From: Deltaproteobacteria bacterium
Lineage (GTDB): Bacteria; Bdellovibrionota; UBA2394
DNA: 64,000 nt
Assembly (NCBI GenBank): GCA_017302715.1
Contig: JAFLCD010000002.1
Span: 131,882 to 195,881, forward strand
Reading direction: 5' to 3'
Shown: positions 4,666 through 47,990 of the stretch, in pieces
Numbering within the stretch: the stretch's first letter is position 1
Layout: each line of letters begins with the position of its first letter
Notes under the pieces: model-generated
Seen by the model: only the letters and a program-made list of their open reading frames with translations
Told to the model about the DNA's origin: nothing
Databases searched by the model: none
Program-made: the position numbers and the translations under genes

Positions 4666-7600
4666 ATGTATACAAAAACAAGAAGTAACAATATGGGAAT
4701 GGGGACTCCGCTAGCTGTAGCCATCGTGTTTACGGTCGTGATTGTCACCGCGATCGTAGGATTCATGACGAAGTCGCAATACAATCTCAAGTTGACGTCC
4801 GATAAATCTAAAGGAAATTTTAGAAATTTTGAGCTCTCTAATTTACGCGACCAGGTTGAAGCGGATCTCGCCAAAATTTTTTCAGCTCAGGGCCGAGACT
4901 TACTGATGAAAACTCAGACCGTGAATATTCCTAATTGGACTTTTGGAGGTCTTAAAACAACTACCGGAATTTTGGGTGGACCTAGCGTAAGTTCTGTTAA
5001 TCTTTCTTCCACACAAGCACCTGGAAGTTTTGAACTCACGTATGCGATGAGCAAAGATGATGTTTATCTTTTTGCGCGCGTGTTGTGCGTAAAATGTGTA
5101 ACGATCGACTCCATTTCAAATGCCAATACATCAGGTTTGCTGATGAACCCTTTATCCCACTTGGATGTAAAATTAATTTTAACCACACCCTCGGGTTCGG
5201 CAAATGCGTCGGCATCTTACATTGTGCGTCTTGCACTTCCGAGTGACTATTCTCTCGGATCAAACTCGGATGGCTTAAGCGTTCTGCCTGTCGATTATTC
5301 AAAAACGATAGACGGCAAATTAGTCAACGTCGTTTCAACTTGCCCCACAGACGCGGGCTTAAATGAAGAATATGTTTCAAAAGTTGCCAAAGTTCAAACA
5401 GCCAATATGTGTAGCGGTGGATTTAGTAATATTAAAGATTCGAATACTCGTTTAAGTTCAGCGAATAAATCATTAGCGGGAGCTTCTGCGTTGAGTGATT
5501 TCATTGCCGCTTCTGCGCAGCTCAATGCTGCAAAAACAATCTATATGAAAAACACGGGGGATAACGGATCGCTTGCGACCGAAATCATTAGCAATGCACC
5601 CGTCGATTTTTCTGCTCTCAGCAAAAGTCATCCTGAGCTTTCAAGTTTGTTAACCAATGATCAACTTTTCGTAGGAACAGGATTATTTGATTCCAATACC
5701 ACACTCACCGCGAATGTTTCCATCTGCGGAATCGAAACTGCAAATTTTAATTCCGATGACGTTAGCGATATTGTCGTTGCTCGAAATAATTCAAATACCG
5801 TTTCTGTTTACTCGAGTAATAGCGATGGGTCGTACAATACTCCGGTTGATTATACGGTGGGAAGTGGACCCTTTGCAGTCACCACAGCAGATCTGCGTAA
5901 CAACGGCCGCAAAGATATTATCACGGCAGATTTTTACGATAATACGGCTTCCATTCTTTTGAGTAATGGCGATGGAACTTTTGCGGCTCGCACCATAGTA
6001 GCGGTGGGTACGCACCCTCGAAAAGTCACTCTCTCCGATGTCAATCACGATGGAGTTCCGGATTTAATAAGTAGTGGAGATAGTCCCAATCTAACCGTGG
6101 CACTTGGAAATGGTAGCGGTGGTTTCTTAACTCCAACGACTTATCCCATTTCAGCGGCAGGTAATTATGAAGTTCAAATTTCTGATATGAACGGCGATGG
6201 AAAGCCTGACGTCGTTGTAGCTTCTACCTCTGATGAATATGTTTCGACGCTTCTTGGAAATGGAGACGGAACTTTTCAGGCGAGAACAAATTTCGTAGTT
6301 CCCTTTTCGGCGAGAGGTTTAGCCTTGAGCGATTTTGACGGAGACGGAAAAAAAGATATTGCTGTCGCAGGAAATGGAACAGTTAGTATTTATGCAGGCA
6401 ACGGAGCTGGCAGTTATACGCTTAAAAATTCGATGAGTGTCGGAGCGAATCTGCAAACACTCAAAGCAATGGATATTAATAACGATGGTAAATCCGATCT
6501 TGTCATTGCCGATCGTGGAATCACCGGAACTGGAAATTCGATTTTTACTTTATTCGGAAATGGAAATGGAAATTTTACGAATTCGCAAACCCTGACCGTA
6601 GGTAACGACGTTCGATTTTTTTCGATTTCAGATCTTCAAAGTCATGGTGCACTCGATGTTATTTCTTCGGACTATGCGAGTGGAACGATTTCAATTCGCA
6701 GAGGCGCCGTTGATTTAGATAAAGCGGCCGCTAACCTTTCTAAAGTAGCAGGAATTTATAAAAGAGCGCTTTCTGCTTTAAATGATCCTGAAGACGGAGT
6801 TTCAACGTCGGTCGTTCAAGTGGCAACAGTGGATTTGTCATCGTACGCATGTCCTTCCGCATCTGCGGCTCCGATTTCTATTCCTGCACTTATTGGCCCT
6901 GGAGTGGCTAAACTTAAAGCAAGTGTGGAGTCGAATGTAACTTCTTCAGCCACCAAAATGACTTATGTAAGTTGTCCAAGTCATCAAGCCACCGTCAGTT
7001 TGAATGGCGATCAGTTGAGAACGCAGTGTGTAGCTTTAGCGTCTGACGTTCAGGCTCCGACAGCTTCGGTTTCAACGGTGCCTCGTTCGGGCACTATCGT
7101 GTACGCAACACCTGGAACAGATTTAGTTGTGACGGCGCCATTCGAAGCAAGTCATCCGGTTACATTGATCGCTTCAAGCGACAAAATTTTTGTAAATGCT
7201 CCAATCACTTCAAAAAAAGCGAGTGTGAGTGGGATTAGTTCTGCATCTTCAGAGACCTCCAGTTGCACCAATGCGAATCGTATCACAGCAGATTGTTTTA
7301 GTTACGCTGTTAAATCTCTCGATGGTGCAGCACGTGTCGGTCTTGTTGCCGATACCGTAAGTTTTGTCGCACATAATAATTTGCCTTCCATCGTGAGTGG
7401 AAAAATTTCTGCCTCTGTAGAAAATTTAGGCGATCTGATTCCAAACGCTCTCGATTCCAATGCTGTTGTTCAAGTGGCTCAAGCGCATATCGTGGCAAAC
7501 AAAATGATCACAGAAGTTCCTTCGTCTGAAGCAGGAGCCGCTCTCGTAAGTGGAAGTCCAAAACTTCTTCGAACCGAAATGGCGAGCATGAATAAGGGAT

Positions 7601-7878
7601 CCATTTTGATTGCGGGTACAGCTACGGCTGAAGTTTTTGCAACAGGTCAGGTGCTTAACACCGGCTCATGTCAACCGATTGGGGCCAGCATCATTCTTCA
7701 ACCTCAAAATACTCGTAACAGTACTTGTACGACGGGCTCTCAAGATTGTGCGCCTCTTCCCATTTTGGGAACATCAGCGGGACCTACTTATACGGTTTCG
7801 CGAGTTAATTACTCGGTTGGTGCCGGAATGGATTCGTCGGGCCCAAACGTTTTAGCAGCGGGTGGCGGTGCTCGTTAA
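4666..7878 (+). CDS. giant surface protein: pilin-like membrane segment plus seven FG-GAP repeats
   Basis: Protein of 1070 residues. Residues about 9-32 form one hydrophobic helix preceded by GMGTP, similar to the N-terminus of PilX-type minor pilins but lacking Glu at +5. Residues about 358-684 contain seven consecutive FG-GAP/VCBS blades, each with a calcium-loop-like D-x-N-x-D-G motif (DVNHDGVPD, DMNGDGKPD, DFDGDGKKD, DINNDGKSD) and an ending such as LGNGDGTF. Seven blades would close an integrin-alpha-type beta-propeller. The last 300 residues are Ser/Thr/Ala-rich and beta-like. It is probably an adhesive tip component working with the PilW-like protein. Confidence 0.75.
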   Translation: MYTKTRSNNMGMGTPLAVAIVFTVVIVTAIVGFMTKSQYNLKLTSDKSKGNFRNFELSNLRDQVEADLAKIFSAQGRDLLMKTQTVNIPNWTFGGLKTTTGILGGPSVSSVNLSSTQAPGSFELTYAMSKDDVYLFARVLCVKCVTIDSISNANTSGLLMNPLSHLDVKLILTTPSGSANASASYIVRLALPSDYSLGSNSDGLSVLPVDYSKTIDGKLVNVVSTCPTDAGLNEEYVSKVAKVQTANMCSGGFSNIKDSNTRLSSANKSLAGASALSDFIAASAQLNAAKTIYMKNTGDNGSLATEIISNAPVDFSALSKSHPELSSLLTNDQLFVGTGLFDSNTTLTANVSICGIETANFNSDDVSDIVVARNNSNTVSVYSSNSDGSYNTPVDYTVGSGPFAVTTADLRNNGRKDIITADFYDNTASILLSNGDGTFAARTIVAVGTHPRKVTLSDVNHDGVPDLISSGDSPNLTVALGNGSGGFLTPTTYPISAAGNYEVQISDMNGDGKPDVVVASTSDEYVSTLLGNGDGTFQARTNFVVPFSARGLALSDFDGDGKKDIAVAGNGTVSIYAGNGAGSYTLKNSMSVGANLQTLKAMDINNDGKSDLVIADRGITGTGNSIFTLFGNGNGNFTNSQTLTVGNDVRFFSISDLQSHGALDVISSDYASGTISIRRGAVDLDKAAANLSKVAGIYKRALSALNDPEDGVSTSVVQVATVDLSSYACPSASAAPISIPALIGPGVAKLKASVESNVTSSATKMTYVSCPSHQATVSLNGDQLRTQCVALASDVQAPTASVSTVPRSGTIVYATPGTDLVVTAPFEASHPVTLIASSDKIFVNAPITSKKASVSGISSASSETSSCTNANRITADCFSYAVKSLDGAARVGLVADTVSFVAHNNLPSIVSGKISASVENLGDLIPNALDSNAVVQVAQAHIVANKMITEVPSSEAGAALVSGSPKLLRTEMASMNKGSILIAGTATAEVFATGQVLNTGSCQPIGASIILQPQNTRNSTCTTGSQDCAPLPILGTSAGPTYTVSRVNYSVGAGMDSSGPNVLAAGGGAR

Positions 7879-12844: not shown

Positions 12845-13447
12845 TCAAGATGGCAGACCTCTTAAGAAACGTATCACGTACATAATTCCAGACCACAGAG
12901 CGAGAATCACCGAGACGGTGAGTAAAACGAGTCCGATCTCATTCCAGATCGGCCAATTTACCAGAAGGAATAAAATCGCAAAAAACTGAATCCAGGTTTT
13001 AAGTTTTCCGCCTCTATCCGCAGGTAAAACAATTCCAGCCGTTGAAGCAATGGCGCGAAGACCGGTGATGGCAATTTCTCTTCCCACCGTAACGATGACT
13101 AAAATCGGAGGCAAAATATCCGCGTGAATTCCAAAAAAATGAAACTCAAGTCGATGCATCCAGAGCAGAACGATCATCGTTGATACAATGATGAGTTTGT
13201 CGGCAAGAGGATCGAGAAGCACTCCCAGTTTCGATTCGTAGTTATATTTTCGCGCGACCCAGCCATCTATATAATCAGAAAGGCCTGCGAGTGAAAAAAA
13301 TATCGCGGCCAAAATATTCCATCCGTAATAAACGCTGGTTGCTACGAGCGGAATTGCAACGACTCGGCTTAAAGTAAGAATATTTGGCAGCAGATAAAAG
13401 TCAGAGCGCCGAATGAGTTGAAATTTCAATTTTTCGGTAACTTTCAT
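12845..13447 (-). CDS. pgsA: CDP-diacylglycerol-glycerol-3-phosphate 3-phosphatidyltransferase
   Basis: Protein of 200 residues with the CDP-alcohol phosphotransferase signature: Asp58, Asp61-Gly62, Ala65-Arg66, Gly75, Asp79 and Asp83 in the order D-x2-DG-x2-AR-x8-G-x3-D-x3-D. Four or more hydrophobic segments place it in the inner membrane. It makes phosphatidylglycerol phosphate for anionic phospholipid synthesis. The ATG overlaps the stop of the upstream lipoprotein gene by four bases, so they are co-translated. Other members of the family are possible but length and motif spacing fit PgsA. Confidence 0.88.
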   Translation of the reverse strand: MKVTEKLKFQLIRRSDFYLLPNILTLSRVVAIPLVATSVYYGWNILAAIFFSLAGLSDYIDGWVARKYNYESKLGVLLDPLADKLIIVSTMIVLLWMHRLEFHFFGIHADILPPILVIVTVGREIAITGLRAIASTAGIVLPADRGGKLKTWIQFFAILFLLVNWPIWNEIGLVLLTVSVILALWSGIMYVIRFLRGLPS

Positions 13448-14109
13448 TTAGTACTCGGCGCAGAAGTTTGTGGCTGCACAACGAATTCATATTCAAGAGA
13501 TCCTCGGGGTCCCGTTATCAAGAGTCTGATCATATCAGCAGAAGCCAAATCTTTTTTTGGAAAACGAACGCGGTAAGTTCTGCCAAAATTACTCATATTT
13601 TTGTAAAAATATTTGGCTCTCTCATCTTTATGAGAGGCTGCCTCGATTTTATCGTGATCGACTTGGACCGTTCCATCAGGATTTTCTATAAAAATTCTCC
13701 ACATCGAATGCTTTTTTTCAAAATCATTCCACTCGGGTTCGCGGGTAGAGGCTGAAAGCACAAAAACAAAATAATCCTTATCTTCAGCTTTCTGTTCCGC
13801 AGCGATTTTCTTCTCGGCATCTTCGGTCAATTGGTATTGGCGGGCCATTTCGTGCGTGAAAGCTTCTTGCAATCGTGGGCTCCAATAAGTGGCATACACG
13901 GTCATCACAGGTTCGAATTCACTATGAACCTGCTTTTCTTTTGTGACTTTGTCGAAAATTCGAGAATAAGAATCATCGTTCCAAACGGCATCGAGAAAAT
14001 TATATTGTCGTGGAGCTTTTCGTCGCTGGCTTGTAGTCGCGCATGCAGAAACAAATTCAGTCAAAACGAAAAGAAAAAGAATTCGAGAAAAAAGAGATCC
14101 AAATTTCAT
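13444..14109 (-). CDS. predicted lipoprotein of unknown function
   Basis: Protein of 221 residues with a lipoprotein signal peptide: a basic start, a hydrophobic core and a lipobox ending in VSAC at Cys23. The mature part starts with a TTSQRR linker and is otherwise charged, with no domain I recognise. It should be anchored in the envelope. It lies between pyrE (adjacent, no spacer) and pgsA (4-base overlap), so it belongs to the SCP2-pyrE-lipoprotein-pgsA transcript. Confidence 0.75.
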   Translation of the reverse strand: MKFGSLFSRILFLFVLTEFVSACATTSQRRKAPRQYNFLDAVWNDDSYSRIFDKVTKEKQVHSEFEPVMTVYATYWSPRLQEAFTHEMARQYQLTEDAEKKIAAEQKAEDKDYFVFVLSASTREPEWNDFEKKHSMWRIFIENPDGTVQVDHDKIEAASHKDERAKYFYKNMSNFGRTYRVRFPKKDLASADMIRLLITGPRGSLEYEFVVQPQTSAPSTK

Positions 14110-14667
14110 CTACATTAGGTTCCCAAAATCAGATTTTCGAAACAAGCTATAAAGTTTTAAACCTTCCTTTTGTAAGGCTTCGCGTCCACCTTCTTCTCGA
14201 TCGACCACGGCGGCTACGCCGAGAACCGTCCAACCATGCTCTCGAACTTTTTTTGAGGCTTCAATCGAAGAGCCCCCACTCGTGACCACATCTTCAACAA
14301 TAACTACTTCAGCTTGAGGTTTAAGAAAGTGTCCGCCTTCGATCATTTTTCCGGTTCCGTGTCCTTTAGCTTCTTTTCGAACGATGAAAGCCTCGAGCGG
14401 ATGTTTTTCAACAAAAGAAGTGAGTGCTACAGCAGTAGCAAGTGGATCAGCACCAAGAGTAAGTCCGCCGACACCGACGGCTTCTTTATAATTTTCGCGG
14501 ATGAGAGAAAATAATCCTCGGCCAATGAGATAAGAACCTTCGGCAAGTAAGCTAACACGTTTAACGTCGATATAAAAATTGGATTGGCGTCCCGAAGCTA
14601 GAGTGACTTGTTTTTGCTCGTAAGCTTTTTCTTTTAAAATTTCTAAAAGACGTGGATCTGAGGTCAT
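14110..14667 (-). CDS. pyrE: orotate phosphoribosyltransferase
   Basis: Protein of 185 residues. The PRPP-binding motif VVIVEDVVTSGGSS lies at residues 121-134, and the N-terminal part carries the expected SGRQSNFYID substrate segment. It converts orotate and PRPP to orotidine 5'-monophosphate in pyrimidine synthesis. The ATG overlaps the SCP2 gene stop by four bases. No other pyrimidine gene is nearby. Confidence 0.93.
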   Translation of the reverse strand: MTSDPRLLEILKEKAYEQKQVTLASGRQSNFYIDVKRVSLLAEGSYLIGRGLFSLIRENYKEAVGVGGLTLGADPLATAVALTSFVEKHPLEAFIVRKEAKGHGTGKMIEGGHFLKPQAEVVIVEDVVTSGGSSIEASKKVREHGWTVLGVAAVVDREEGGREALQKEGLKLYSLFRKSDFGNLM

Positions 14668-15002
14668 GATGAAAAAAGTCCTCCCAATTTAAGAGCTAAA
14701 GTTTTATCTCCAGAGATTTTTATTTTGCCGGTGACGAGGGCCATGGGAATATTGAGATCTCGTCTTAATAATTTTTCAAAATTTTCGGCTGAAATTTTTA
14801 AAGTGCAGTCTGGGTCAGAATGTGCGCCGGATTTAATTTGAGGTTCAGATTGATAGAGATCAAGATTCCAAACTTTTCCGTCGATTTCAAATTGATAGAC
14901 GCAGTCGAATCCTTGCATGGATTCGGGATTTTCTTTGAGGTTACGGTTCATCTTTACCTCAAAGAATTCTTGAATGTTTAGAGGTTTGCTCGACTTCGAC
15001 AT
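14664..15002 (-). CDS. SCP2 sterol-carrier domain protein
   Basis: Small cytoplasmic protein of 112 residues that is nearly all one SCP2 domain. It shows the domain's beta strands, the DPDCTLKIS turn, a FEKLL helix and the typical ending with a G-K-I-K-I-SGD motif followed by a hydrophobic helix. Such domains bind fatty acyl chains or other lipids. It overlaps pyrE by four bases. The actual ligand cannot be deduced. Confidence 0.78.
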   Translation of the reverse strand: MSKSSKPLNIQEFFEVKMNRNLKENPESMQGFDCVYQFEIDGKVWNLDLYQSEPQIKSGAHSDPDCTLKISAENFEKLLRRDLNIPMALVTGKIKISGDKTLALKLGGLFSS

Positions 15003-15040: not shown

Positions 15041-15910
15041 TCAAAGCCGTTCAATATCCGCTAAGAGATCCGTTAAATCCTCTGTTCCATCGATGGGATT
15101 TAAAAAATCTCGCTGTCGTCCCATTAAATATTCGGTGCCTAAAAAGCCCGCGAAGCGTCCTGCGATTGCTCCCACATAAGCCCCAAATATTACGATCGGA
15201 ACTCGACCACCTAATTTAGCGATTTTTTCCCAAGTTCCTGTTGTCGCGCTCATTTCAAATATTTTTGTAGATGCTTTGTAACTGAGCACTCCACCAACCG
15301 CTGTTCCGAGCACGGCCATTCCGGTCATGACGAGCGATTGAATATGTCGACGCTTATCTTCAATCGAAAGCCATTTCGCCTGAAGTTTTTCATTGAGTGA
15401 TCCGTAGCGAATCACTTCAGATTGGTGTGCCAGCCAAGAAGCGTTGATCAAATAAAGTCTCGATTCAAATGTTTTGGTGTCTCCTGATTTAAAAGTTAGA
15501 CGAACAATTTCATCTCGAACTTTTGAAAACTCAGGAACAGCTTCGTCATCGTTTGGATTAAATTTTACGCTGACAAACTGCTCAAGCAATTGAACAAACT
15601 TTTTCTGATCTTTTTCAATCGCGGCCACAATTCGTTGCTGTCTTTCAGAAAGTTTAATTTCTGAAATCGTATCATCTAAAGTTTTTTTCTTTTTAACTTC
15701 CGGAAGCGCTTCAGGAGTTTTTACGGCAGGTTTAGGAGCAGGCTTAGCCGCTTCTTCTTCTGCAGGAGCTTCGGATAAATCCGGATCCGTTAAGATAATG
15801 ACGATTGGATCCGCATTTGTAGGAGCCGCGCTAAGTTTTTGGTTTGTTGCCGATTGTGATAGAGCAATCGCACCCCATGCGATCAATCCCATTCTAAAAT
15901 ATACTTTCAT
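15041..15910 (-). CDS. exported protein with a double glycine-rich membrane segment (unknown operon, gene 4)
   Basis: Protein of 289 residues, not recognised. It has a signal peptide (about 1-28), an acidic and Pro/Ala/Lys-rich linker (residues 45-80), a helical domain (80-190), then two glycine-rich hydrophobic segments (about 198-212 and 235-258) separated by a short loop, and an acidic tail. The same layout occurs in the next two upstream genes. The protein is probably inserted in the inner membrane with its helical part in the periplasm. It is the last gene of the four-gene operon, 21 bases after the previous one. Confidence 0.65.
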   Translation of the reverse strand: MKVYFRMGLIAWGAIALSQSATNQKLSAAPTNADPIVIILTDPDLSEAPAEEEAAKPAPKPAVKTPEALPEVKKKKTLDDTISEIKLSERQQRIVAAIEKDQKKFVQLLEQFVSVKFNPNDDEAVPEFSKVRDEIVRLTFKSGDTKTFESRLYLINASWLAHQSEVIRYGSLNEKLQAKWLSIEDKRRHIQSLVMTGMAVLGTAVGGVLSYKASTKIFEMSATTGTWEKIAKLGGRVPIVIFGAYVGAIAGRFAGFLGTEYLMGRQRDFLNPIDGTEDLTDLLADIERL

Positions 15911-15931
15911 TTTCCCCTCCGATTTCTATTT

Positions 15932-16537
15932 TTATTTTACTTCTTGAAGTTCCTTATTCATTAAATCCAAATCGCCCATCAATGCGCCCTCTTGCAAATC
16001 ATAGTGAGGCATCTCGATGAGTTGTCCTAAAAGAAATCCTGCGCCTGCACCCGTGAGCGCTCCTGCAGGAATCGTGATCGCCATCACTTTCATTCCCATT
16101 GAAGTAGAAGTTGAAAGAACTTTGCCGACGGGAATTCCGACAACGGCCCCGATCACAGCGCCACTTACCGTATAGAGCATTCGTTTTTCTTTTGCTTTCT
16201 CGATTCGTTCGTCGAATTCATTTCGAAGCCGAGCATCGAGACTCATATAGCGATCGAGAAGTTCTGGCTTAGCTTTTAAACTTGAACGAAGCATTCTTAG
16301 ACGACCTTCGAACTCCGACTTACTGGTGGTGTCGAAAATGGTTTCAGCTAAACGATTCACGATGAGTTTTGCCATGGGCTCGGTGGTATCGAGTTCATGA
16401 CTTATAAATTCGTTAAAGTAATAACCAAATTCACTTTCATTATCGATAGGTTCCGATGCTGCATAAACTGAAACGCTTAAAAGAAAAACGCCTCCGATCG
16501 TAAGTAGATTTTTTATTTTACTGATTTGTCGTCTCAC
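15932..16537 (-). CDS. exported protein with a double glycine-zipper membrane segment (unknown operon, gene 3)
   Basis: Protein of 201 residues, not recognised. A signal peptide ends near YAAS; residues 30-118 are helical and charged; residues about 122-142 and 148-172 form two hydrophobic segments with repeated Gly at four-residue spacing, such as GAVIGAVVG. A short acidic tail follows. Its start lies 20 bases inside the preceding gene, indicating coupled translation. Together with its neighbours it probably forms a membrane complex, but no function can be assigned. Confidence 0.65.
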   Translation of the reverse strand: MRRQISKIKNLLTIGGVFLLSVSVYAASEPIDNESEFGYYFNEFISHELDTTEPMAKLIVNRLAETIFDTTSKSEFEGRLRMLRSSLKAKPELLDRYMSLDARLRNEFDERIEKAKEKRMLYTVSGAVIGAVVGIPVGKVLSTSTSMGMKVMAITIPAGALTGAGAGFLLGQLIEMPHYDLQEGALMGDLDLMNKELQEVK

Positions 16538-17237
16538 GCGTTCCCTCCAATTCTGAAAGTTCTAGTTGAAGATCACCTGCTGAATTTGATTCGAGATCTT
16601 TTAAAAAATCTTCGCCGTTGGGATATCGCTGCGCAAATTCCTGGGCATTCGTTACAGAGCGATCAACAGGAAGAGAGTAGACGGCAGCGACACCGACTCC
16701 GTAACCAACTGCTGTTAATCCTACGATCGCTGTCGCAGCAATCGTTGCTGATTTTGCGTTGAGAGAAGTGAAATAAATATAACCGCCTCCGACGGCGAGA
16801 CCTACGATGGCTCCCCCGACGGTGGACCAGATTTTAATCAATCGATCCTGGTCTTTTTGTTTCCTAACTTCTCGTAGTGCGAGCTCCAGAAAAGCATTTC
16901 CAAGAATTGTGAAATAATTTTTAAGCTCTGCATTTTCTTTAATTGTTTTGCCTAAAAACGCATCGAGCTTGGGATGATTTTCGGTTGTCAGCTCTCGAAA
17001 ATAAATAAGAGAGATTCTTGTCGCTGTTTGATAAAGCGAATCAAGTTGCTCTTTCTCATTGGATTGATTTTTTGTTTTGTCATGCAATTCAGCGGCGGTC
17101 TCGACAAAATTTCTAACCTCTCCTGTAAACATCAAAATATTTTGATCCTTCTCAGGAATTTCGGCCGTGGTTGTTGTAGTCAAAGCGAAGCCCAAAACGC
17201 CCCACACTGAAATAGCTTTCATCCATTTATGAATCAT
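16518..17237 (-). CDS. exported protein with a double glycine-rich membrane segment (unknown operon, gene 2)
   Basis: Protein of 239 residues, not recognised. It has a signal peptide ending around the TTTTTAE stretch, a helical charged domain (residues 30-130), and two hydrophobic Gly/Ala-rich segments (about 135-155 and 165-185, with GGAIVGLAVGGG). The C-terminal 50 residues are acidic. The start overlaps the end of the preceding gene by 11 bases and its own end overlaps the next start by 20 bases. Its architecture mirrors genes 3 and 4, suggesting ancient duplication. Confidence 0.65.
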   Translation of the reverse strand: MIHKWMKAISVWGVLGFALTTTTTAEIPEKDQNILMFTGEVRNFVETAAELHDKTKNQSNEKEQLDSLYQTATRISLIYFRELTTENHPKLDAFLGKTIKENAELKNYFTILGNAFLELALREVRKQKDQDRLIKIWSTVGGAIVGLAVGGGYIYFTSLNAKSATIAATAIVGLTAVGYGVGVAAVYSLPVDRSVTNAQEFAQRYPNGEDFLKDLESNSAGDLQLELSELEGTRETTNQ

Positions 17238-18585
17238 TTTTAATTTCTCCTCTTAGTCGCGTTAGTTCCTGATCAATTTGCAAAATTATTTTTTCTCGTT
17301 GAGCCTTAGCTTTAAAAAGTTCAAGGCGGCGTTTCTCCATTTCTTTTTCAAGAGTTTCGAGAGAATTTTTGAGAACTTCTGTGCGATTTGATTTCTTCCA
17401 CAATTGATCGGCAACTTTGAAATCATTTTCATTGGCGATTAAATTAACGGTGGTCGGAAAGAATAGTTCAGAAAGCAAGCCCACTCCAAAGATTACGCGG
17501 CCGGTGACAACAATATAATAAGAAGCGCCGATCTCCACAGCAGCTCGAGCGGAGAAATCAAAAGAATCTAAGAATTCTTGAATCGGAATTTCAGATTGAG
17601 CCGCTGCAGCCGGATTGACGTTTGAATAAAAATTTCTGATTCCAACGACGCCATATTCAAGATCCTGAAAATCCTGGATGAGTCGATAGAGCTCGCGAAT
17701 CTGTGTAGCTCTAAACTCTACATCTTCTTTTAAAAGTGGATCGAATAAATTTCTTACGCCGGTGTATTTCATCCAGTCTGAAATCGAGAGAAGAAAGGCC
17801 TTTACCTGAAATGAATCCGTAGCTTGCGGAAAAAGTTTAGTAAGAAGTGGGGTAAGCTGTCCGTCAAAACGCGAATTGACTTCATCGTATTTGATTTGTT
17901 CTTCGCGAGCTTTTTTTCCAATCTCAATCGCTTTGTCTTTGGCGAGATTCATGAGCAGACCGGCTTGCTCGGCATAAGTCTGCATGGCGACTTGATACTG
18001 AATGCCTTCAATCATTCCTCGATCGATAGCTTCTTGGATCATGTCTTTTTGATCTGGAGACATGAGACTCACTTGCAAATAAAACTCGAGTGAATTGAAA
18101 AGCACGCGAACTTCAGACGTAAGTTTCATCCAATCCGAACGAACTTCTCTTTCGTGATCGTATCTTTTTTTCCACCACTGCGTCCATTCGCTCAGTGTCT
18201 GCGGAAAATAAGACTTCATTTTAGGAGCTTCAAATTTTTCGCGCACCAATCGATACGCTGATTTGACTCCGCTATCTCGAGACTTTAAAAAAGCTTTTCC
18301 TACTTCGGGAATCAATTCGGATCGCTGATCAAAGCGAGAGATCAGATTGAATTTTTTTCTTTGGCATTCGTCGCTATAGCAGGGGTTTTTACCTTGCAGA
18401 ATTCTTTGAAGCTGATCATTGGCCATCGCTCTTTGTTTTTCAAGGCGAGCGATTTTATCTGCCTGAGATGGCGACGACTGAGCAACGGCAGTCGACACTC
18501 CTAATAGGTGTGCGAAAGCCAAACTCGCTGCAAAATAGCGAATACCTGCTAACGGCAATGTCACGAATTTTCCCCTCGAGATCAC
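17227..18585 (-). CDS. exported helical protein (unknown operon, gene 1)
   Basis: Protein of 452 residues, the largest product of the operon. A signal peptide is followed at about residues 68-74 by a Cys pair (PCYSDEC) and then a mainly helical body. A hydrophobic segment lies near 360-380 and a strongly charged coiled coil covers the last 60 residues. No family is recognised. A terminator upstream (18649-18665) separates it from the degenerate GGDEF gene, so the operon probably starts from a promoter in the 76-base gap. Confidence 0.65.
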   Translation of the reverse strand: MISRGKFVTLPLAGIRYFAASLAFAHLLGVSTAVAQSSPSQADKIARLEKQRAMANDQLQRILQGKNPCYSDECQRKKFNLISRFDQRSELIPEVGKAFLKSRDSGVKSAYRLVREKFEAPKMKSYFPQTLSEWTQWWKKRYDHEREVRSDWMKLTSEVRVLFNSLEFYLQVSLMSPDQKDMIQEAIDRGMIEGIQYQVAMQTYAEQAGLLMNLAKDKAIEIGKKAREEQIKYDEVNSRFDGQLTPLLTKLFPQATDSFQVKAFLLSISDWMKYTGVRNLFDPLLKEDVEFRATQIRELYRLIQDFQDLEYGVVGIRNFYSNVNPAAAAQSEIPIQEFLDSFDFSARAAVEIGASYYIVVTGRVIFGVGLLSELFFPTTVNLIANENDFKVADQLWKKSNRTEVLKNSLETLEKEMEKRRLELFKAKAQREKIILQIDQELTRLRGEIKNDS

Positions 18586-18648: not shown

Positions 18649-18665
18649 CTAACGCAACGCGTTAG
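18649..18665 (-). terminator. intrinsic terminator after the degenerate GGDEF gene
   Basis: CTAACGC-GTT-GCGTTAG on the minus strand is a 7-bp stem with a three-base loop followed by TTTTC. It overlaps the stop codon of the gene at 18662-19552. The stem is short, so efficiency is uncertain. Confidence 0.55.
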
Positions 18666-19552
18666 TGCTGATGCGCGCCAGTTTCAATCGAAGAGATAAC
18701 AAAGGGAAGTCGCCATTCTCTTTTATTCGAGTGAATTTTAAGGCCCTTCAATGCATCTTCGAGTCGATCTTTGCATTTTGAAAGATGGCTTGAATCTGCG
18801 TTCGAAAGAAAAATGAGAAACTCATTTTCTTTATTGTGAAGAATGCGGTCAGAATTTCTAACTGCTGATTGGATCATTCGTGAGATCAGATCGATAACTT
18901 CGGTTGTTCCGATATCACTTAAAGCCGATTTCGCTCGGCTCCAAGAATTCAAAGTAATTTTAAGACCAAATTTGGATTTATCTTCCCGCGGGCCAAGTAA
19001 TTCTCCCAAAATCTGACGACTTTGAATGGGACAACTTAAGCTTCTGGCTGGATCAAAACTGCTCAGTTGAGGAAACTTTTTCTCAACCAATCTTTGCAGT
19101 CTCTCATTTTGAGCCTTCAGACGTTTTTTTCGACCAATCTCTTCAATGAGACGAGGTAGCTGAATCAGATAATCCAAACTTTTTGTTTCACTGAGAGCCA
19201 CAATACAAGAATGCAGAACTTTTTTTCTCTTCTGGTTAAGAAGTTGAAACCCAGAAGGGGTGACGATCAAGATAATAGGAGAATTTTTATGTGCTTTTGT
19301 GATGGCATCAAAAGTTTTAAGAGAGGTTGAGGTAAAATTCTTTATTTCAGCTATTACCCCATCCGGAGCGTCTATTTTTTTTAAAGCAGGGGCTTTGAAT
19401 TCAGCAAAACGAAAATAAGAAAAATGATAAGTAGGAAATCGCTTCTCGAGTAAATTTTTTAAGAACACAGACTTGGTGGCCGGAGCATTTCCTGAAGAAT
19501 TATCAGGAGTACTTTGAATCACCCGCCATCTTGCCCCCCATTTTTCCCGCAC
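18662..19552 (-). CDS. degenerate REC-GGDEF-like protein
   Basis: Protein of 296 residues. Residues about 20-125 alternate strands and helices like a response-regulator receiver but lack a clear phospho-Asp. A coiled coil (125-150) leads to a C-terminal domain with the GGDEF fold pattern, where SDRILHNKENEFLIFL aligns with the usual D-x-x-x-R-x-GGDEF-x-x-x-L. GGDEF itself is replaced by NKENEF, so diguanylate cyclase activity is unlikely. It may be a c-di-GMP effector or a structural remnant. It diverges from the exported protein at 19617. Confidence 0.6.
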   Translation of the reverse strand: MREKWGARWRVIQSTPDNSSGNAPATKSVFLKNLLEKRFPTYHFSYFRFAEFKAPALKKIDAPDGVIAEIKNFTSTSLKTFDAITKAHKNSPIILIVTPSGFQLLNQKRKKVLHSCIVALSETKSLDYLIQLPRLIEEIGRKKRLKAQNERLQRLVEKKFPQLSSFDPARSLSCPIQSRQILGELLGPREDKSKFGLKITLNSWSRAKSALSDIGTTEVIDLISRMIQSAVRNSDRILHNKENEFLIFLSNADSSHLSKCKDRLEDALKGLKIHSNKREWRLPFVISSIETGAHQH

Positions 19553-19616: not shown

Positions 19617-20291
19617 ATGAAAAAAACGTCTCAAATGCGCGCGAATCTCTCACTTCTTTTGTCTTTGTGTGTCATCTCGACGATTTTTTTTACTCCTCAG
19701 TCGAGTGAGGCCATGATTTTTAAACCTCTCGAAGCAAAATCGGTCTGCTTTATTTCATTTTCATCCAAAATTTCTGAGGAAGTTCGATCGGCCGTTAGAA
19801 ATATTCTCAGAGATTATTTTGATGGGGATTGCAGTCAACTTCAGTCCTCCATGGAGGATCCTTTTTTAGATTCCTCTAAGTCGATGTGGCCCAAGGTGCA
19901 GGGACTTGGACTTTGGTTGGGATCTTCAAATTCATCGCAAGAGCTTTCAATGAGAGGCTTTGATCTTGAAAGTGGCTTAGAGTTTGGCTCTGCAAAAAAT
20001 ATTTCACTTAAGAATTTAATTCCTGCTCTTTTGAAGCAACATCCGATGGTGGGAATCATTCGACCGACGGGCTTTGTCATTTGGAAAGATATTGGTTCAG
20101 CCAATGTTCAGGTGTTTGAGAGAAGGAATGTAAAACGACATCCTTTATTGCCTCATCTTTTAGAAATTTCGGGCGCCGTTAAAAAAACTCCTCTGCTTAA
20201 GCAAAAGGAAGGGGATCTTGTAAGCTCTTCAGACTTCTCTCTCGACACTACAGCTTCTCTCTGGCTAAAAGTTTTGGAAGCTCATGAGTGA
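19617..20291 (+). CDS. exported protein of unknown function
   Basis: Protein of 224 residues with a signal peptide ending near SSEA. GGGGAG lies about nine bases upstream of the ATG. The mature part contains two Cys (CFIS and DCSQ) that could pair, and a central HPMVGIIRPTGF segment. No family is recognised. It overlaps the next gene by eight bases. It is divergent from the degenerate GGDEF gene across a 64-base gap. Confidence 0.6.
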   Translation: MKKTSQMRANLSLLLSLCVISTIFFTPQSSEAMIFKPLEAKSVCFISFSSKISEEVRSAVRNILRDYFDGDCSQLQSSMEDPFLDSSKSMWPKVQGLGLWLGSSNSSQELSMRGFDLESGLEFGSAKNISLKNLIPALLKQHPMVGIIRPTGFVIWKDIGSANVQVFERRNVKRHPLLPHLLEISGAVKKTPLLKQKEGDLVSSSDFSLDTTASLWLKVLEAHE

Positions 20292-20769
20292 TGAACGAGA
20301 GAAAAAATCTTGGGCAGAGATAGATTCGGCCCGCAATCGAGGCGTAAAAGCGACAAAATCCGTTTCTAAAGCGGATGCTCGGGAGCAAAAGCTAGCTTCT
20401 TCAGCTGCCAAGAAAAAACTCGAAGCACTTTTTAGTTCAAGTCCTCTCTCTAAAGAAAAAGCGGCTAAGCTAAATGAGATTCATAAATTACGTCTGAGCG
20501 ATCGAAATCAATATTATCAAAAGATGAGTGAGTATCTAAAAGATTATGGAACTCCACGTGAATGGGATGCTCAACTTTTTTTCTTGGATCATCGAGATGT
20601 AAATGTCGTTTGTGAGATTTTAGACGAATTAAAAAAAACAGCACCTCGTGAAAACTTAAGTCGACAAGATGTGCTCGGTTCTAAGCTAAAGGTCATGAGT
20701 CTTTCTACTTTTGACTCAAAGCTTTTAGATAAAATTAAAGAAGTTCAGGTTGCGATTTTAAAAACTTAA
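20284..20769 (+). CDS. cytoplasmic protein of unknown function
   Basis: Protein of 161 residues without signal peptide or membrane segment. The first 60 residues are Lys/Ala/Ser-rich and probably disordered or coiled; the C-terminal 90 residues look like a small helical domain (TPREWDAQLFFLDHRD and following). It starts eight bases inside the previous gene, so the two are coupled. No function can be inferred. Confidence 0.55.
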   Translation: MSDEREKKSWAEIDSARNRGVKATKSVSKADAREQKLASSAAKKKLEALFSSSPLSKEKAAKLNEIHKLRLSDRNQYYQKMSEYLKDYGTPREWDAQLFFLDHRDVNVVCEILDELKKTAPRENLSRQDVLGSKLKVMSLSTFDSKLLDKIKEVQVAILKT

Positions 20770-20796: not shown

Positions 20797-21234
20797 TTAT
20801 CGGGCTGCGTTCTTTGAAGCGGGCTTTTTTGGAATCGATTTAACCTGCGTAGGCTTAGACTTAGGCTTTCGCTCGTGACGTTTTACTTTTAAAATCTTCT
20901 GCTCAAGACGCGAAACTAAATGTTGATAGTGATCAATTTCGGCGCGCGCTGCTTTCATTCTCACTTCGCGCATTTCGCCTTTATCTATTTTTACATCCGA
21001 TTTTCCATCTGTTTTGCGCGGTGGAGATTGAAGTTCAGAAAGTTTTCGCTGGGCGATCATCAGACGAGCTCGAGAAGAAATCAGTTCTTCTTGAGGACTT
21101 AGTTCATCTCGATCTTGAAAATTACTAACGATTTCTCCAAATCTTTTGACGGCGTAAGTTTCTGGTCGAACGATCTCGACTTTTGAAGGTGGAGTCGAAG
21201 AAATCACAGTCAAAAAAAGAGCCAAATCGAGCAT
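20797..21234 (-). CDS. small basic coiled-coil protein of unknown function
   Basis: Protein of 145 residues. A short hydrophobic N-terminus (residues 2-13) could be a weak signal. The middle (about 45-115) is a heptad-like coiled coil, and the last 30 residues are a Lys/Pro/Ala-rich basic tail. It could bind nucleic acid or cell wall through the tail, but nothing specific is visible. It converges on the gene ending at 20769 with 27 bases between. Confidence 0.5.
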   Translation of the reverse strand: MLDLALFLTVISSTPPSKVEIVRPETYAVKRFGEIVSNFQDRDELSPQEELISSRARLMIAQRKLSELQSPPRKTDGKSDVKIDKGEMREVRMKAARAEIDHYQHLVSRLEQKILKVKRHERKPKSKPTQVKSIPKKPASKNAAR

Positions 21235-25365: not shown

Positions 25366-25553
25366 GAAAAAAAACTGCTCCCACCTGTACCGTTAGAAGT
25401 CTTTATTTGAACCCAGCAATTGCTAGGTGGGACCCATGTAAATCGCTTTAGGCACAATCCTAAGATTGCGCACACCACATTCAGGGATAGGCCCCCAAGT
25501 TACGTTATAGGTTAAATAAACGCACCTTCCTCACGAATACCGCAGGAGCAGTT
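25366..25553 (-). ncRNA. ssrS: 6S RNA
   Basis: Between zapA and fthC on the minus strand lies a 181-base segment whose ends pair perfectly (AACTGCTCC at the 5' end with GGAGCAGTT at the 3' end) and which is followed by eight T. The 5' part carries TGCGGTATTCGTGAGG, typical of the 6S closing stem. Internal hairpins include GCGCAATC-TTAG-GATTGTGC. Size, shape and the zapA-ssrS-fthC synteny all fit 6S RNA, which binds sigma-70 RNA polymerase in stationary phase. Confidence 0.87.
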
Positions 25554-42420: not shown

Positions 42421-45400
42421 TTATTTTCCGGTTCCTGAAATTTTTCCAAGCACACGGCGAATCCAAAGTCTAAAATCATCGATGGTGGAGAACGCAGCCG
42501 GAATCACAACCAAAGTTAACAAAGTAGAGCTAATGAGTCCGCCGATGATCGCGATACCCATGCTAGTTCTCTGACGAGAAGCTTCGTTAAGTCCAATCGC
42601 GACAGGAAGCATACCTGCGATCAGTGCAACGGTGGTCATCAAGATCGGACGAAGCCGAGTGCGTCCGGCCGTAACGAGTGCCGTCATTCGATCTTTTCCT
42701 TCGCCGATCATTTGGTTTGCGTAATCGACGAGTAAGATGGAATTTTTTGTGGCGACCCCAAGAAGCATAATACATCCGATCATCGAAAAAATATTGAGCG
42801 ATTTGCCCATCACAAAAAGTGCGTAGAACGCACCACAAGCGGCAAGCGGAATCACAAGCATGATCGTAAACGGAGTGATGAAAGATTCGTAGAGACTTGC
42901 GAGCACAAGATAAATAAATAAAATCGCAAGAGCCGCAGCGATCAGCATGCTCTCCATTAGATTTTTAAAATCTTCGGCTTGTCCGATGAATTCATATTTT
43001 ACGCCTTCAGGAAGTTTTAAATCTCCAGATGCAAACATTTCTTGAACATCTTGCATCGCTCGCCCCATTCCTGGGCCATCGGCCGAGATATCGGCAGAAA
43101 TTTGTACGTAACGTCCGCGATCTTGTCGGTTGATATTCGCAGGCCCTTTGGCTTCAACGCCTTCACTTACGTCTGAAAGTTTGACGAGGTAGCCGTTGAT
43201 ATTTGGAATAAAAGTTTGCGAAAAGTTTTGCTGAAGATTTCTTTGATCTTCTTGCAAACGAACGCGCACATCATATTCTTTTCCGCTCTCTCTAAATCTT
43301 GCCGGAGTGATGCCCTCGATCTGAGTACGAAGTTCGGCTCCTAAAATTTCGGAGGAAACTCCAAGTTTTTCAGATTTTTGTTTGTTGAACGCGACCTGAA
43401 ACTCTGGTTTTCCGGGTCGAAAACTGATGTCGACGTCTTTGAGCGCAGGATTTGCTTTTAGTTTTTGCATCGTCGCTACTGCGATTTTTTCAAGCTGATC
43501 TAAGTCGTAGCCCGAGATATTGAGATTGAAAGGGCGTTGTCCTCCAGCGACGAGGTCGATATCTTGCACTCGAGGGTTTGCAAAAGCAAAAGGCTGAAAA
43601 TCTTTTCTTAAAAGGTCTTTAAAATCTGAAGTATTTATTTTTCTTTTCTTAGCCGGCACAAGTTGAACAAAAAATTTGGCTTCGTTTGCAGGGCCTTTTG
43701 CAGAGCCTACGGTGAGAACGGTGCGTTCGACTTCGGGATATTTTTTTGTGATGGCTTCAAGTTGTTTGGCGACTTCTTCAGTGGCATCTAAATTTTTTCC
43801 TGGAGGAAGATCGAGGCGAACTTCAAATTCTCCGAAATCTTGTGGCGGCAAGAAAGTTTTAGGAACAAATTTCAAAATGAATCCGCTGCCTAAAACAATG
43901 ACGACGACACAGCCCAAAATGATGACAGGGTTTTTAATCGAAAATCTTAAAACAGTTTCGTAGTGGTGCTCTAAAAATTTTTGAAAGTTATCGACAGCGG
44001 TGATTGCTCTTCCAATCGTTAAATCCCAGAGGGATTTTTTTGCTTTGGGATCTTTGTGGGTGGGTGTTGCAAGATAAGCTGAGAGCATCGGAGCCATCGT
44101 AAGGGCATCGATCAAACTGATGATCATGGCAAAACAGATTGTTAGCCCAAACTCTCTAAAAAATTGACCGACAATTCCGCTTAAAAAAGAAACCGGCCCA
44201 AAGACTGCGAGTACAGTAGCCGTCGTCGCGATAACAGCGAGAGTGACTTCGGATGTTCCAACCAGAGCTGCTTGCCGAGGAGGCAAGCCTAGTTCGATAT
44301 GCCTAAAAATATTTTCACGAACCACGATGGCGTCGTCGATCAAAAGTCCAACCGCTAAGCTGAGCGCCAAGAGAGTCATAATGTTGATCGTAAATCCTGC
44401 AAAGTACATCAGGATGAATGCTCCAAGCAGAGAGTTCGGAAGCGCAAGTCCCGTAATAAAAGTAGAGCGCAAATTTCCTAAGAAAAATAAAACGACCACA
44501 AGTGTAAGAATGATTCCAAGCAAAATGGATTCTTCGACATCGTCGACGTTATTTTGAATAAACTTCGAAGTATCGTAGACGAGCCCGATATGAGCCTTGT
44601 TCGGATTGGATTGATATTCTTGATTCAAAGCCGCCATTTTTTTCTTAATTTCTTTGGCGACGGCAATCGTGTTCGCTCCTGATTGACGATAGACGTTAAT
44701 AAACAAGGCTTTCGATCCGTTGACGAAGGCTCGAGATTTTTCGTCTTGAAGTCCATCGACCACTTTGCCGACGTCTTTAACGGTCACAGGAACATCATTG
44801 CCAAAAAAATTGACGATGACGTTTTCGATATCTTTAGGAGATTGAAATTCTCCGAGACTTCGAAAACTCATTTCAGATTTTTGAGAGTCGATTTTTCCGA
44901 TGGGAATATTTTGTCCTGCAGATCCGATTCTCTGAGCGACCATATTGGCTGAGACTTCGTAAGCTTTAAGTTTTTTTCGATCGAGCTCAGCGCGAATTTC
45001 TCTTTTCCTTCCGCCTTCAATTTCAACCAATCCGACCTGATTGATCTGCTCGAACTTAGGTTTTAAAATTTCATTGGCGAGATCGTAGAGCTGACCTTCA
45101 GGTAAATTTGCCGTCAGTGCTAAAATCACAATCGGTTGATCGGCGGGATCGATCCTACGAATCACGGGCTCATCGATATCCTTTGGTAATTTGGATCGTG
45201 CAGAAGAAACACGATCGCGAATCTGTTGTTCTGCATCTCGAATAGGAGTTTCGAGTGTGAACTCAGCGACGACTTGGCTTAAGCCCTCTCGATTGATCGA
45301 GCGAACGGTTTTGATTCCAGCGACCGTGCTGATTTCTTCTTCGAGAGGTTTTGAAATTAAAGTTTCAATTTCATTGGGACTTGCTCCGGGATAAACCGTC

Positions 45401-45543
45401 TGAATAAAAACGACGGGAAAACTTACGTTCGGAAATAAATCGACGCCAAGTTTTAAGAGTGAAAGCCCGCCGATCGCAAGCATCAAGATGAATGCGCAGG
45501 TGATAAAAATCGGGCGCTTGATAGATAGTTCAGGTAAATTCAT
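42421..45543 (-). CDS. RND efflux transporter, HAE1 (AcrB-like)
   Basis: Protein of 1040 residues with twelve membrane helices and two large periplasmic loops. The proton-relay Asp pair is seen in LLIDDAIVVREN (near 402) and the Lys in ATKNSILLVDYAN (near 933). It exports hydrophobic compounds through a TolC-like duct using proton force. It overlaps the TolC-like gene by four bases. No membrane fusion protein gene is present in this operon, which is unusual for an AcrB-type pump. Confidence 0.92.
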   Translation of the reverse strand: MNLPELSIKRPIFITCAFILMLAIGGLSLLKLGVDLFPNVSFPVVFIQTVYPGASPNEIETLISKPLEEEISTVAGIKTVRSINREGLSQVVAEFTLETPIRDAEQQIRDRVSSARSKLPKDIDEPVIRRIDPADQPIVILALTANLPEGQLYDLANEILKPKFEQINQVGLVEIEGGRKREIRAELDRKKLKAYEVSANMVAQRIGSAGQNIPIGKIDSQKSEMSFRSLGEFQSPKDIENVIVNFFGNDVPVTVKDVGKVVDGLQDEKSRAFVNGSKALFINVYRQSGANTIAVAKEIKKKMAALNQEYQSNPNKAHIGLVYDTSKFIQNNVDDVEESILLGIILTLVVVLFFLGNLRSTFITGLALPNSLLGAFILMYFAGFTINIMTLLALSLAVGLLIDDAIVVRENIFRHIELGLPPRQAALVGTSEVTLAVIATTATVLAVFGPVSFLSGIVGQFFREFGLTICFAMIISLIDALTMAPMLSAYLATPTHKDPKAKKSLWDLTIGRAITAVDNFQKFLEHHYETVLRFSIKNPVIILGCVVVIVLGSGFILKFVPKTFLPPQDFGEFEVRLDLPPGKNLDATEEVAKQLEAITKKYPEVERTVLTVGSAKGPANEAKFFVQLVPAKKRKINTSDFKDLLRKDFQPFAFANPRVQDIDLVAGGQRPFNLNISGYDLDQLEKIAVATMQKLKANPALKDVDISFRPGKPEFQVAFNKQKSEKLGVSSEILGAELRTQIEGITPARFRESGKEYDVRVRLQEDQRNLQQNFSQTFIPNINGYLVKLSDVSEGVEAKGPANINRQDRGRYVQISADISADGPGMGRAMQDVQEMFASGDLKLPEGVKYEFIGQAEDFKNLMESMLIAAALAILFIYLVLASLYESFITPFTIMLVIPLAACGAFYALFVMGKSLNIFSMIGCIMLLGVATKNSILLVDYANQMIGEGKDRMTALVTAGRTRLRPILMTTVALIAGMLPVAIGLNEASRQRTSMGIAIIGGLISSTLLTLVVIPAAFSTIDDFRLWIRRVLGKISGTGK

Positions 45544-46988
45544 GGGTTCACTTCTCCTTGAGTGCTGGCAGAACTAAAATTTGAAAATGTTTTAAGCTGT
45601 GCGTAAGTCGTCAATAAATCGAATTCAGTTTTTGCAAGATTGAGGCTCGCGAATTCATAATCCTGTTCAAAAACTAAAACTTGATAGGTGGTAGAGCGTC
45701 CTCGATGAAGTCGCTCTTGCTCATAGACAGATTTTTCTCTCTGCGCACTTTCAAGTTCTCGGGCGATGGTGAGTTGCTTTTTTAATTCTACAAATTTTTC
45801 AGAAAGATCTCTCCACTCCTGCTCTTGTTCAAAAAACTTTCTTTGATAATCGAGCTCTGCCGCTTTTCTTTCTTTATGAGCGCCCGCTCGAATATCTTTT
45901 TGCGCCCAAAAATCGAGAGGAAGAACCAAATTTACTCCGACAGCATACGTATTGTGATTGGTTTTAAAAGATTGGCTAAAGGCTTCGTCCATTTCGGAAT
46001 TTCGAGAGTGAAGCTCAATCGATCCTGTCGCATCGAGAGAGGGGCGAGATTTGTTTAAGGTTTGATCTGCTTGAGCCGTTTGAGATCGCTTGCGCTGTTC
46101 GGCAGCGAGCAGATCTTCTCTTCGAGATGCGCGCACAGGAATTTGAAGAGAAGAAAGTGCTTCTCCATTTAGACCGGAGAGCTTTTCTTTTACTTCGGAA
46201 CTTTCAACTCCTCGAAAGGTATTGAAACTCAAAGCGGCAGCACGCTGTTCATCTTGAGCTTGCTGAGTTTCAAATTGGCGTGTTCGGTAGGCGGCATCAC
46301 CTTGTAAAAAATCGGAGCGATCGGCCAAATGATTATCCATTCGATTCTTGCTCCAGGTTCTGATTTTTTTAGCTCTCTCCAAAGTTTGCTCACGAATGGT
46401 AAGAATGCGAGTAGAAATAAAATATTTCCAATAAGTCGCTTCAGCCGCTGCCAAAATTTGTTTCAGCTTAAATTGCTCTATAAAACTTAGTTCTAAAAAT
46501 TGAGCTTCGGCGGCTCTGACCATCGCGCGAGTTTCAGAGCCGAAGAAATTTTTCCAAAGCGATTGAGAAACTTCAATGGTCGGAGAAGCATCGTAATATT
46601 TAGGTTGAGAAATCAAACTCGGACTTGTTCCTTCAAGTGTCGTGTGACTGAGTTCGTAAGTAACCTTGGCTTGAGTTCCAGTTGAAAATAATTTTGAAAG
46701 CCCGAGTGTGTTTGCAAAAACTTTTGTCTTTGAACCCATCGAGGCTGGATTAAGAGTGGGGCGGCCGTCGTTATACCACTGTGATTTTGCCAAAAGCTGC
46801 GGTGAAAGCATAAATCTGCCGAGCTTTGATTCTTGAAACGCGGCTTTGGCTCGCATCTCTGAAGCTGCAAATCCAAGATGAGAGGTTCTTACTTGTTCTA
46901 GATAGTCTACGAGTGAAAGATTTGTTTTCTCTGCGGCGAATGCGGAAAAAGAAAATGTAAAGCTTAAGGTAAAAATAAAAAATTTCAT
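45540..46988 (-). CDS. TolC-like outer membrane efflux protein
   Basis: Protein of 482 residues with a signal peptide ending in AFAAE and two long-helix repeats (about residues 150-270 and 370-460), the outer membrane efflux protein (OEP) pattern. It would form the trimeric outer-membrane channel for the RND pump downstream. It overlaps the TetR gene by four bases and the pump gene by four bases, so all three are translated together. Confidence 0.82.
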   Translation of the reverse strand: MKFFIFTLSFTFSFSAFAAEKTNLSLVDYLEQVRTSHLGFAASEMRAKAAFQESKLGRFMLSPQLLAKSQWYNDGRPTLNPASMGSKTKVFANTLGLSKLFSTGTQAKVTYELSHTTLEGTSPSLISQPKYYDASPTIEVSQSLWKNFFGSETRAMVRAAEAQFLELSFIEQFKLKQILAAAEATYWKYFISTRILTIREQTLERAKKIRTWSKNRMDNHLADRSDFLQGDAAYRTRQFETQQAQDEQRAAALSFNTFRGVESSEVKEKLSGLNGEALSSLQIPVRASRREDLLAAEQRKRSQTAQADQTLNKSRPSLDATGSIELHSRNSEMDEAFSQSFKTNHNTYAVGVNLVLPLDFWAQKDIRAGAHKERKAAELDYQRKFFEQEQEWRDLSEKFVELKKQLTIARELESAQREKSVYEQERLHRGRSTTYQVLVFEQDYEFASLNLAKTEFDLLTTYAQLKTFSNFSSASTQGEVNP

Positions 46989-47626
46989 TTTTTACATCCT
47001 TCAAAAAAGTTTTGTAGAAGTTGTTGAGTGACGAGGGTTCGATAATTTTTGTCCGAAATGCTTTTATCGAAATACTTTTTCGTTGTCGGATCGTTGCGAA
47101 TCAAATGCATCAGCGATCCAAAGAAAAGTTGTGCTGAGATAAAGGGATCTAAGTCGGCGCGCAAAAACCCGTTGGCTTGCGCCTGTTTTAAAAATTCGAG
47201 CAGGGTTTCAAAAACTTTAAGAAAAGTTTGTTTAAAAATATCGGGAGCGATCGTAAATGCATTTTCACATTCGCGATGAACGATTTTGGGAAGATAAGGC
47301 TCTTCAATATGAAAATTAAAAATCTCTTCGACGAACATCTCGAGGCGAACTCGCACTTCATCAAAAGTTTCTGGAGATTTAAAAAGTCTTTGAGTTGCTT
47401 CAAGGCGCTTTTGACCAAATTCACTGAGAACAGTTCGAAACAGTCCTTCTTTCCCATCGAAGTAGTAGCTAACGAGGCTGAGGTTTACACCGGCTTCATC
47501 CGCTAGCTCGCGAACGGTAGTTCCATCGAGGCCTTTTTCAGCAAAAAGCTTTTTAGCGGCTTCTAGGAGCAGCCTCTTCGACTTGTCCGAAGCTTCTGGG
47601 CTTTGCTCTAATTCTGATTTCCCCAT
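46985..47626 (-). CDS. TetR-family transcriptional regulator
   Basis: Protein of 213 residues. Residues about 20-65 form the TetR helix-turn-helix (GTTVRELADEAGVNLSLVSYY), and the rest is an all-helical ligand-binding domain with the FGSLMHLIRNDP segment. It heads the efflux operon and probably represses it, with a pump substrate as inducer. Two identical palindromes at 47680-47717 in the promoter region are its likely operators. Confidence 0.9.
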   Translation of the reverse strand: MGKSELEQSPEASDKSKRLLLEAAKKLFAEKGLDGTTVRELADEAGVNLSLVSYYFDGKEGLFRTVLSEFGQKRLEATQRLFKSPETFDEVRVRLEMFVEEIFNFHIEEPYLPKIVHRECENAFTIAPDIFKQTFLKVFETLLEFLKQAQANGFLRADLDPFISAQLFFGSLMHLIRNDPTTKKYFDKSISDKNYRTLVTQQLLQNFFEGCKK

Positions 47627-47679
47627 CCCTTTTTTATAATAAACTTTTATTTGAAAAAATAAAACAAACGTTTAAATGC

Positions 47680-47717
47680 GTAAAAATTACCTATTTTGCG
47701 TACCGTGTAAAAATTAC
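47680..47717 (-). promoter_or_regulatory. two GTAAAAATTAC palindromes, likely TetR operators
   Basis: The 11-base palindrome GTAA-AAA-TTAC occurs twice, at 47680-47690 and 47707-47717, 27 bases centre to centre. They lie 54-91 bases upstream of the TetR start, in an AT-rich promoter region. Their identity and position fit operators for the adjacent regulator; a spacing near 2.5 helical turns would let two dimers bind on different faces. Confidence 0.55.
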
Positions 47718-47720
47718 ATT

Positions 47721-47986: not shown

Positions 47987-47990
47987 GTGC

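Follow-up and report, generated by a model that had tools for sequence, protein, structure and literature searches.

Helical glycine-zipper assemblies of the envelope, SlyB among them and TraT in manner, are only beginning to be understood. TraT is a homo-oligomer. SlyB forms ring-shaped transmembrane oligomers and acts as a guard of the envelope (PMC13067283). TraT forms a helical oligomer of the outer membrane, a decamer, in which two helices from the soluble core span the membrane (PMC12258729). Here we analyzed a stretch of 64,000 nucleotides (the window) from a Deltaproteobacteria bacterium (contig JAFLCD010000002.1 of assembly GCA_017302715.1, positions 131,882 to 195,881), which carries four adjacent genes for exported proteins, designated g1 to g4. 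The nearest described kinds to these proteins are glycine-zipper envelope proteins, namely SlyB and, in manner, TraT, and we would count the operon as a member of neither.

Results

The four open reading frames on the minus strand at 15041-18585 are all positioned as the preliminary description had them (Table 1). Its statement that the genes overlap or nearly touch was borne out by the g1-g2 and g2-g3 junctions, which overlap by 11 and 20 nt, respectively, and by the 21 nt between g3 and g4; the spacing is similarly tight in four other genera. Five genera keep each gene, with 22-46% identity and an unchanged order, which identifies g1-g4 as real genes. Sec-type hydrophobic segments were present at the N-termini of all four products as judged by eye and by hydrophobicity, in agreement with the signal peptides ascribed to them, and they are weak in some g3 orthologues. 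Translation of g1 probably starts at the GTG at 18564, giving a protein of 445 aa, since its Shine-Dalgarno sequence, AGGGGA, falls within the codons for RGKF. Relatives of g1 have AGGGGA or a similar purine run shortly upstream of the start codon. A promoter scan of the locus gave fewer matches than shuffled sequence, and a terminator scan of the minus strand found no clear terminator just after g4.

Table 1. Features of the g1-g4 locus, with coordinates in the window.
Feature	Coordinates	Strand	Description
small exported coiled-coil protein	20797..21234	-	upstream of g0
g0	18662..19552	-	cytosolic; C-terminal degenerate GGDEF-like domain; 76 nt upstream of g1
g1	17227..18585	-	exported all-helical protein; ORF of 452 aa
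g2	16518..17237	-	exported helical domain, two Gly-rich TM segments, tail
g3	15932..16537	-	exported helical domain, Gly-zipper hairpin, acidic tail
g4	15041..15910	-	exported; low-complexity linker, four-helix domain, Gly-zipper hairpin, tail
SCP2-domain protein	14664..15002	-	38 nt after g4; 4-nt overlap with pyrE
pyrE	14110-14667	-	continues the minus-strand run
conserved lipoprotein-like gene	13444-14109	-	continues the minus-strand run
pgsA-like phosphatidyltransferase	12845-13447	-	name assigned by eye

The SCP2-domain gene is likely on the same transcript as g1-g4, and the transcription unit is probably longer than the four genes, with g0 upstream and SCP2 and pyrE downstream. The series SCP2-pyrE-lipoprotein-pgsA follows the operon in four of the five genera; other genes occupy this place on the contig of the fifth. 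The NfeD-FloA microdomain operon, which has no homology to g1-g4, shares their locus in two sister genera, where an nfeD-floA insertion lies 32-43 nt after g4 (L029:4672-7507 and L030:3924-6385). A search of the remaining three genomes did not find floA, so it is not obligatory for the operon. With SCP2 and pgsA downstream and nfeD-floA in two genera, the neighborhood leans toward membranes and lipids, and these lipid-related genes may be mere neighbors. On the upstream side, g0 adjoins the operon in all five genera, at a distance of 75-142 nt from g1 in four and with a ParA-like gene inserted in the fifth. In two genera the small coiled-coil gene is the immediate upstream neighbor of g0, while in the window genome and two relatives two genes intervene. 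In these three genera the intervening pair consists of overlapping plus-strand genes of unknown family (19617-20769 in the window), the second of which is 57-60% identical between genera. Elsewhere in the window we observed a 6S RNA on the minus strand (25374-25551; Rfam RF00013, 72.8 bits), a 1070-aa protein with FG-GAP repeats (4666-7878), and an RND efflux transporter with an outer-membrane factor, after which come two M16 peptidases in tandem (42421-50920).

The proteins had been described as belonging to no recognised family. This held when they were searched against Pfam, PHROGs, NCBIfam, PADLOC and the PDB, the last by both sequence and fold, as nothing reached significance. None of the profile libraries searched yielded an enzyme family for g1-g4, nor did any PADLOC or PHROG profile match them as an anti-phage defence or phage protein. 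Origin from a phage, plasmid or virus was rejected, as there were no matches and tblastn searches with g1 in phages and g4 in plasmids were both empty. The g3 protein scored 25.4 bits (E 1.2e-5) against Gly-zipper_YMGG (PF13441), below the curated Pfam cut-off of 28.9 bits, and weakly matched the YiaD family in a profile search (0.0013). No match to Gly-zipper_YMGG was seen for g2 or g4. A ClyA-like bundle fold was not found by Foldseek, where the best such match for g4 was AhlB (E 1.1, probability 0.18, TM 0.19) and that for g1 was AhlC (E 0.5).

Single-protein searches of 59 genomes recovered g1-g4 together, in the same order and in single copy, in each of the five genomes that belong to the window's family, which represent five different genera. 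The claim of a conserved gene order thus stands for five of five genera, and the scattering in relatives that had been named as the contrary outcome did not occur. We take the window's lineage to be the one that has the class-level name UBA2394 in the Bdellovibrionota of GTDB. Profile searches with g1, g2 and g4 across 369 genomes of the phylum gave no orthologue beyond the five, and one with g3 across 291 genomes gave no further orthologue. A search of genome contigs with g1 found no match; the same search with an alignment of the three closer g4 sequences found matches in two relatives only. Weak matches to g1 of the right length in two other genera were traced to open reading frames that by eye are FliD-like (flagellar cap), one with flagellin-like neighbors, so that these are chance coiled-coil matches. 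Weak g3 matches in about 50 other genomes of the phylum were likewise rejected as distant orthologues: the eleven inspected are M48 (HEVGH) lipoproteases that have only the Gly hairpin in common with g3. Outside the family, the g3 hairpin is matched best by such M48 lipoproteins of Bdellovibrionota (E down to 9e-8), but they are metalloproteases of about 350 aa and their similarity to g3 is limited to the hairpin and the preceding helix. As an observation in its own right, M48 HEVGH lipoproteins of about 340 aa with an internal Gly hairpin are found in many families of the phylum, with one copy in each genome (L051-L061, e.g. L051:6641-7714).

Between genera, g1-g4 taken together are 25-38% identical, as compared to 55-64% for the five downstream flanking genes. 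Since both sets yield the same grouping of genera, the comparison indicates that g1-g4 have been vertically inherited, with fast divergence that outpaces their neighbors.

The relationship among g2, g3 and g4 was examined by profile comparison. As Gly-rich segments can align by composition, we repeated the comparisons on the helical domains alone. Comparisons of the transmembrane segments by themselves hardly beat shuffled columns; these segments were therefore dropped as evidence of paralogy and only the helical domains were used. The g3 and g4 profiles aligned by hhalign with an E value of 8e-15 over the full length and 3.4e-9 over the helical domains, where the raw score was 51 and none of 30 column shuffles exceeded 19. 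By these measures, g3 and g4 are true paralogues. The corresponding values for g2 and g3 were 9.5e-7 over the full length and 0.0026 for the helical domain, with a score of 21.8, where the shuffles reached no more than 13.9. From these weaker scores, g2 is probably a more distant copy of the g3/g4 subunit. The proposed duplication of a set of genes is therefore demonstrated for g3 and g4 and likely, short of proof, for g2, but the profiles give no sign of it in g1, which was ruled out as a fourth copy for want of similarity to any of g2-g4.

A common plan of a helical domain, two Gly-rich segments and an acidic tail had been proposed for g2-g4. The double Gly-rich segments were present in all 15 orthologues, but the acidic tail proved variable. 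The charge beyond the second segment is -7, -5 and -5 for g2, g3 and g4 of the window genome, and values between -8 and +2 are seen among the orthologues. Pairs of invariant glycines at a spacing of 4 numbered 8 versus 1.4 expected, a count reached by none of 5000 column shuffles. They form a GxxxGxxxG zipper in the first segment of g2 (G142xxxG146xxxG150), G126xxxG130 and, in the second segment, G159xxxG163xxxG167 in g3, and a GxxxGxxxGxxxG zipper in g4 (G243xxxG247xxxG251xxxG255). The tails of g2 and g4 carry F-x3-YPxGEDF, which is conserved, and PIDGxEDL, respectively. The AlphaFold2 models of g1 and g4, built on 5-10 sequences (pTM 0.63 and 0.48, respectively), are both all-helical, with pLDDT values of 75.9 and 68.3. 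In the g4 model, the helices at 89-218 are mostly above a pLDDT of 80, and the last core helix of 53 residues runs into the first membrane segment and then the second (226-262).

All 30 hairpin segments of the 15 orthologues are marginally hydrophobic, with an estimated dG of about -0.2 to +2.6 by a formula used only alongside control proteins. Helices that depend on partners would be expected to look like this; similarly weakly hydrophobic segments occur in the inner-membrane controls. Such weak hydrophobicity would suit helices that insert with the help of partners or that pass on to the outer membrane. The mean flanking charge is +2.3 before the first segment, +1.3 in the loop and -0.8 after the second, a distribution that fits neither the inner nor the outer membrane cleanly.

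In the alignment of g1 orthologues from the five genera, Cys69 and Cys74 are invariant. Besides its N-terminal segment, g1 has one conserved hydrophobic segment at about 356-376 and a C-terminal coiled coil. For g0, neither a signal peptide nor a transmembrane segment was found when looked for. Its signature reads ENEF or DDEF instead of the intact GG(D/E)EF of a diguanylate cyclase, the Gly-Gly having been lost in all five orthologues, and its Pfam GGDEF score of 20.9 bits is below the cut-off of 23.8. By eye, we suspect that the N-terminal part of g0 is receiver-like.

Discussion

The results identify g1-g4 as a real, lineage-specific and undescribed envelope operon, which may encode a new kind of machine. 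Since two or three of the proteins are diverged copies of a hairpin subunit, the operon probably specifies an unstudied envelope complex. The membrane complex with g1 suggested in the preliminary description is plausible, given that the genes are strictly kept together and that the glycine zippers are conserved. As a full explanation, we tentatively favor a lineage-specific structural complex of the envelope, formed by g1-g4 as a membrane scaffold packed by zippers. What counts for it is the order, single copy number and tight spacing in five of five genera, the zippers, the paralogy of g3 and g4 (probable for g2) and the all-helical models. Further points in its favor are the marginal hydrophobicity of the hairpins, the lack of any matching enzyme family, the membrane and lipid neighborhood, the vertical inheritance, and the precedent of SlyB and TraT, from which it is clear that assemblies of this kind exist. 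Points against it are that floA is not required, that the lipid-related genes may be mere neighbors, that a conserved lipobox as in SlyB is missing and that the flanking charges suit neither membrane well. We propose that g3 and g4, and probably g2, follow one subunit plan in which a long helix connects an exported helical domain to a membrane hairpin of two helices, and a short tail, acidic in most cases, completes the protein. Packing of the g2-g4 hairpins by way of their GxxxG zippers would produce a hetero-oligomer, probably shaped as a ring or patch, whose helical domains and tails would face the periplasm. The unrelated g1, with its Cys pair and single hydrophobic segment, may cap or tether the assembly, and g0 may be a co-expressed partner or regulator devoid of cyclase activity. 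The job of the complex would be to scaffold a membrane zone or other membrane proteins in the manner of SlyB rings or flotillin scaffolds, without belonging to either, rather than catalysis. A bolder version, which we consider doubtful, is an undescribed multi-subunit envelope machine in which three diverged hairpin subunits join with a helical partner and with a GGDEF-type regulator devoid of catalytic activity; this machine would be defining, and perhaps essential, for one uncultured class-level lineage of Bdellovibrionota.

It is possible, though unlikely, that g1-g4 are independent small glycine-zipper proteins of envelope stress, each acting alone like SlyB or YiaD and merely co-transcribed without a common complex. 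The weak matches of g3 to Gly-zipper_YMGG and the YiaD family would agree with this. However, no genus has lost or scattered any of the four genes, and the three copies, divergent as they are, have all persisted since the ancestor of the family. Joint retention together with the persistence of divergent copies suggests non-redundant parts of one thing.

Slightly less probable still is an inner-membrane complex for the assembly or export of Gly-rich, collagen-like surface proteins encoded nearby, with the hairpins as its membrane part and g1 as a periplasmic guide. Exported proteins of this type with GGxGG repeats are encoded by two or three genes in tandem in all five genomes of the family. 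In four of the five genera these genes are a few kb upstream of the operon (L027:2-1809, L028:2-1714, L029:13377-16298 and L030:11542-14380), and in three of the four they diverge from the coiled-coil gene. In the window genome, however, they are on another contig (C2:61307-63966; L076:9262-12020), so the linkage to the operon is breakable. In addition, the operon has neither an ATPase nor a known component of secretion systems as a conserved companion, and only one genus has the ParA-like gene. A multi-component alpha-helical pore-forming system directed at other cells, with three hairpin paralogues and a helper as in AhlABC, SmhABC or Nhe, is very improbable, for although these tripartite toxins are also operons of helical paralogues with hydrophobic hairpins and Foldseek does list AhlB, AhlC and SmhB, their hairpins differ in position, length and fold from those studied here, which are near the C-terminus rather than between two long bundle helices, the fold matches (E 0.5-2.5) are far from significance, and a single-copy, vertically inherited operon adjoining the housekeeping gene pyrE is unlike typical toxin loci.

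If the structural complex that we favor is correct, a heteromeric set that arose by gene duplication would provide a test case for how glycine-zipper assemblies diversify. The operon would also be a test case for what marks this uncultured branch of the phylum of predatory bacteria, in which it is retained in every sampled genus while evolving faster than its neighbors.

Compared with known systems, g2-g4 share with Gly-zipper 2TM proteins (Gly-zipper_YMGG, Rick_17kDa_Anti, SlyB and YiaD) their export and the general feature of paired Gly-rich transmembrane helices with GxxxG or GxxxGxxxG. They differ in having an extra N-terminal helical domain and in occurring as three diverged copies in one operon with g1. 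Unlike SlyB, g2-g4 have no conserved lipobox, and in the window genes no Cys is near the predicted cleavage site. TraT is alike in being exported and in extending two membrane-spanning helices from a soluble core, which it does as an oligomer. TraT is, however, a lipoprotein whose core is alpha/beta and bears a long beta-hairpin; the g4 model lacks this core fold, being all-helical, and g4 has no sequence or fold match to it.
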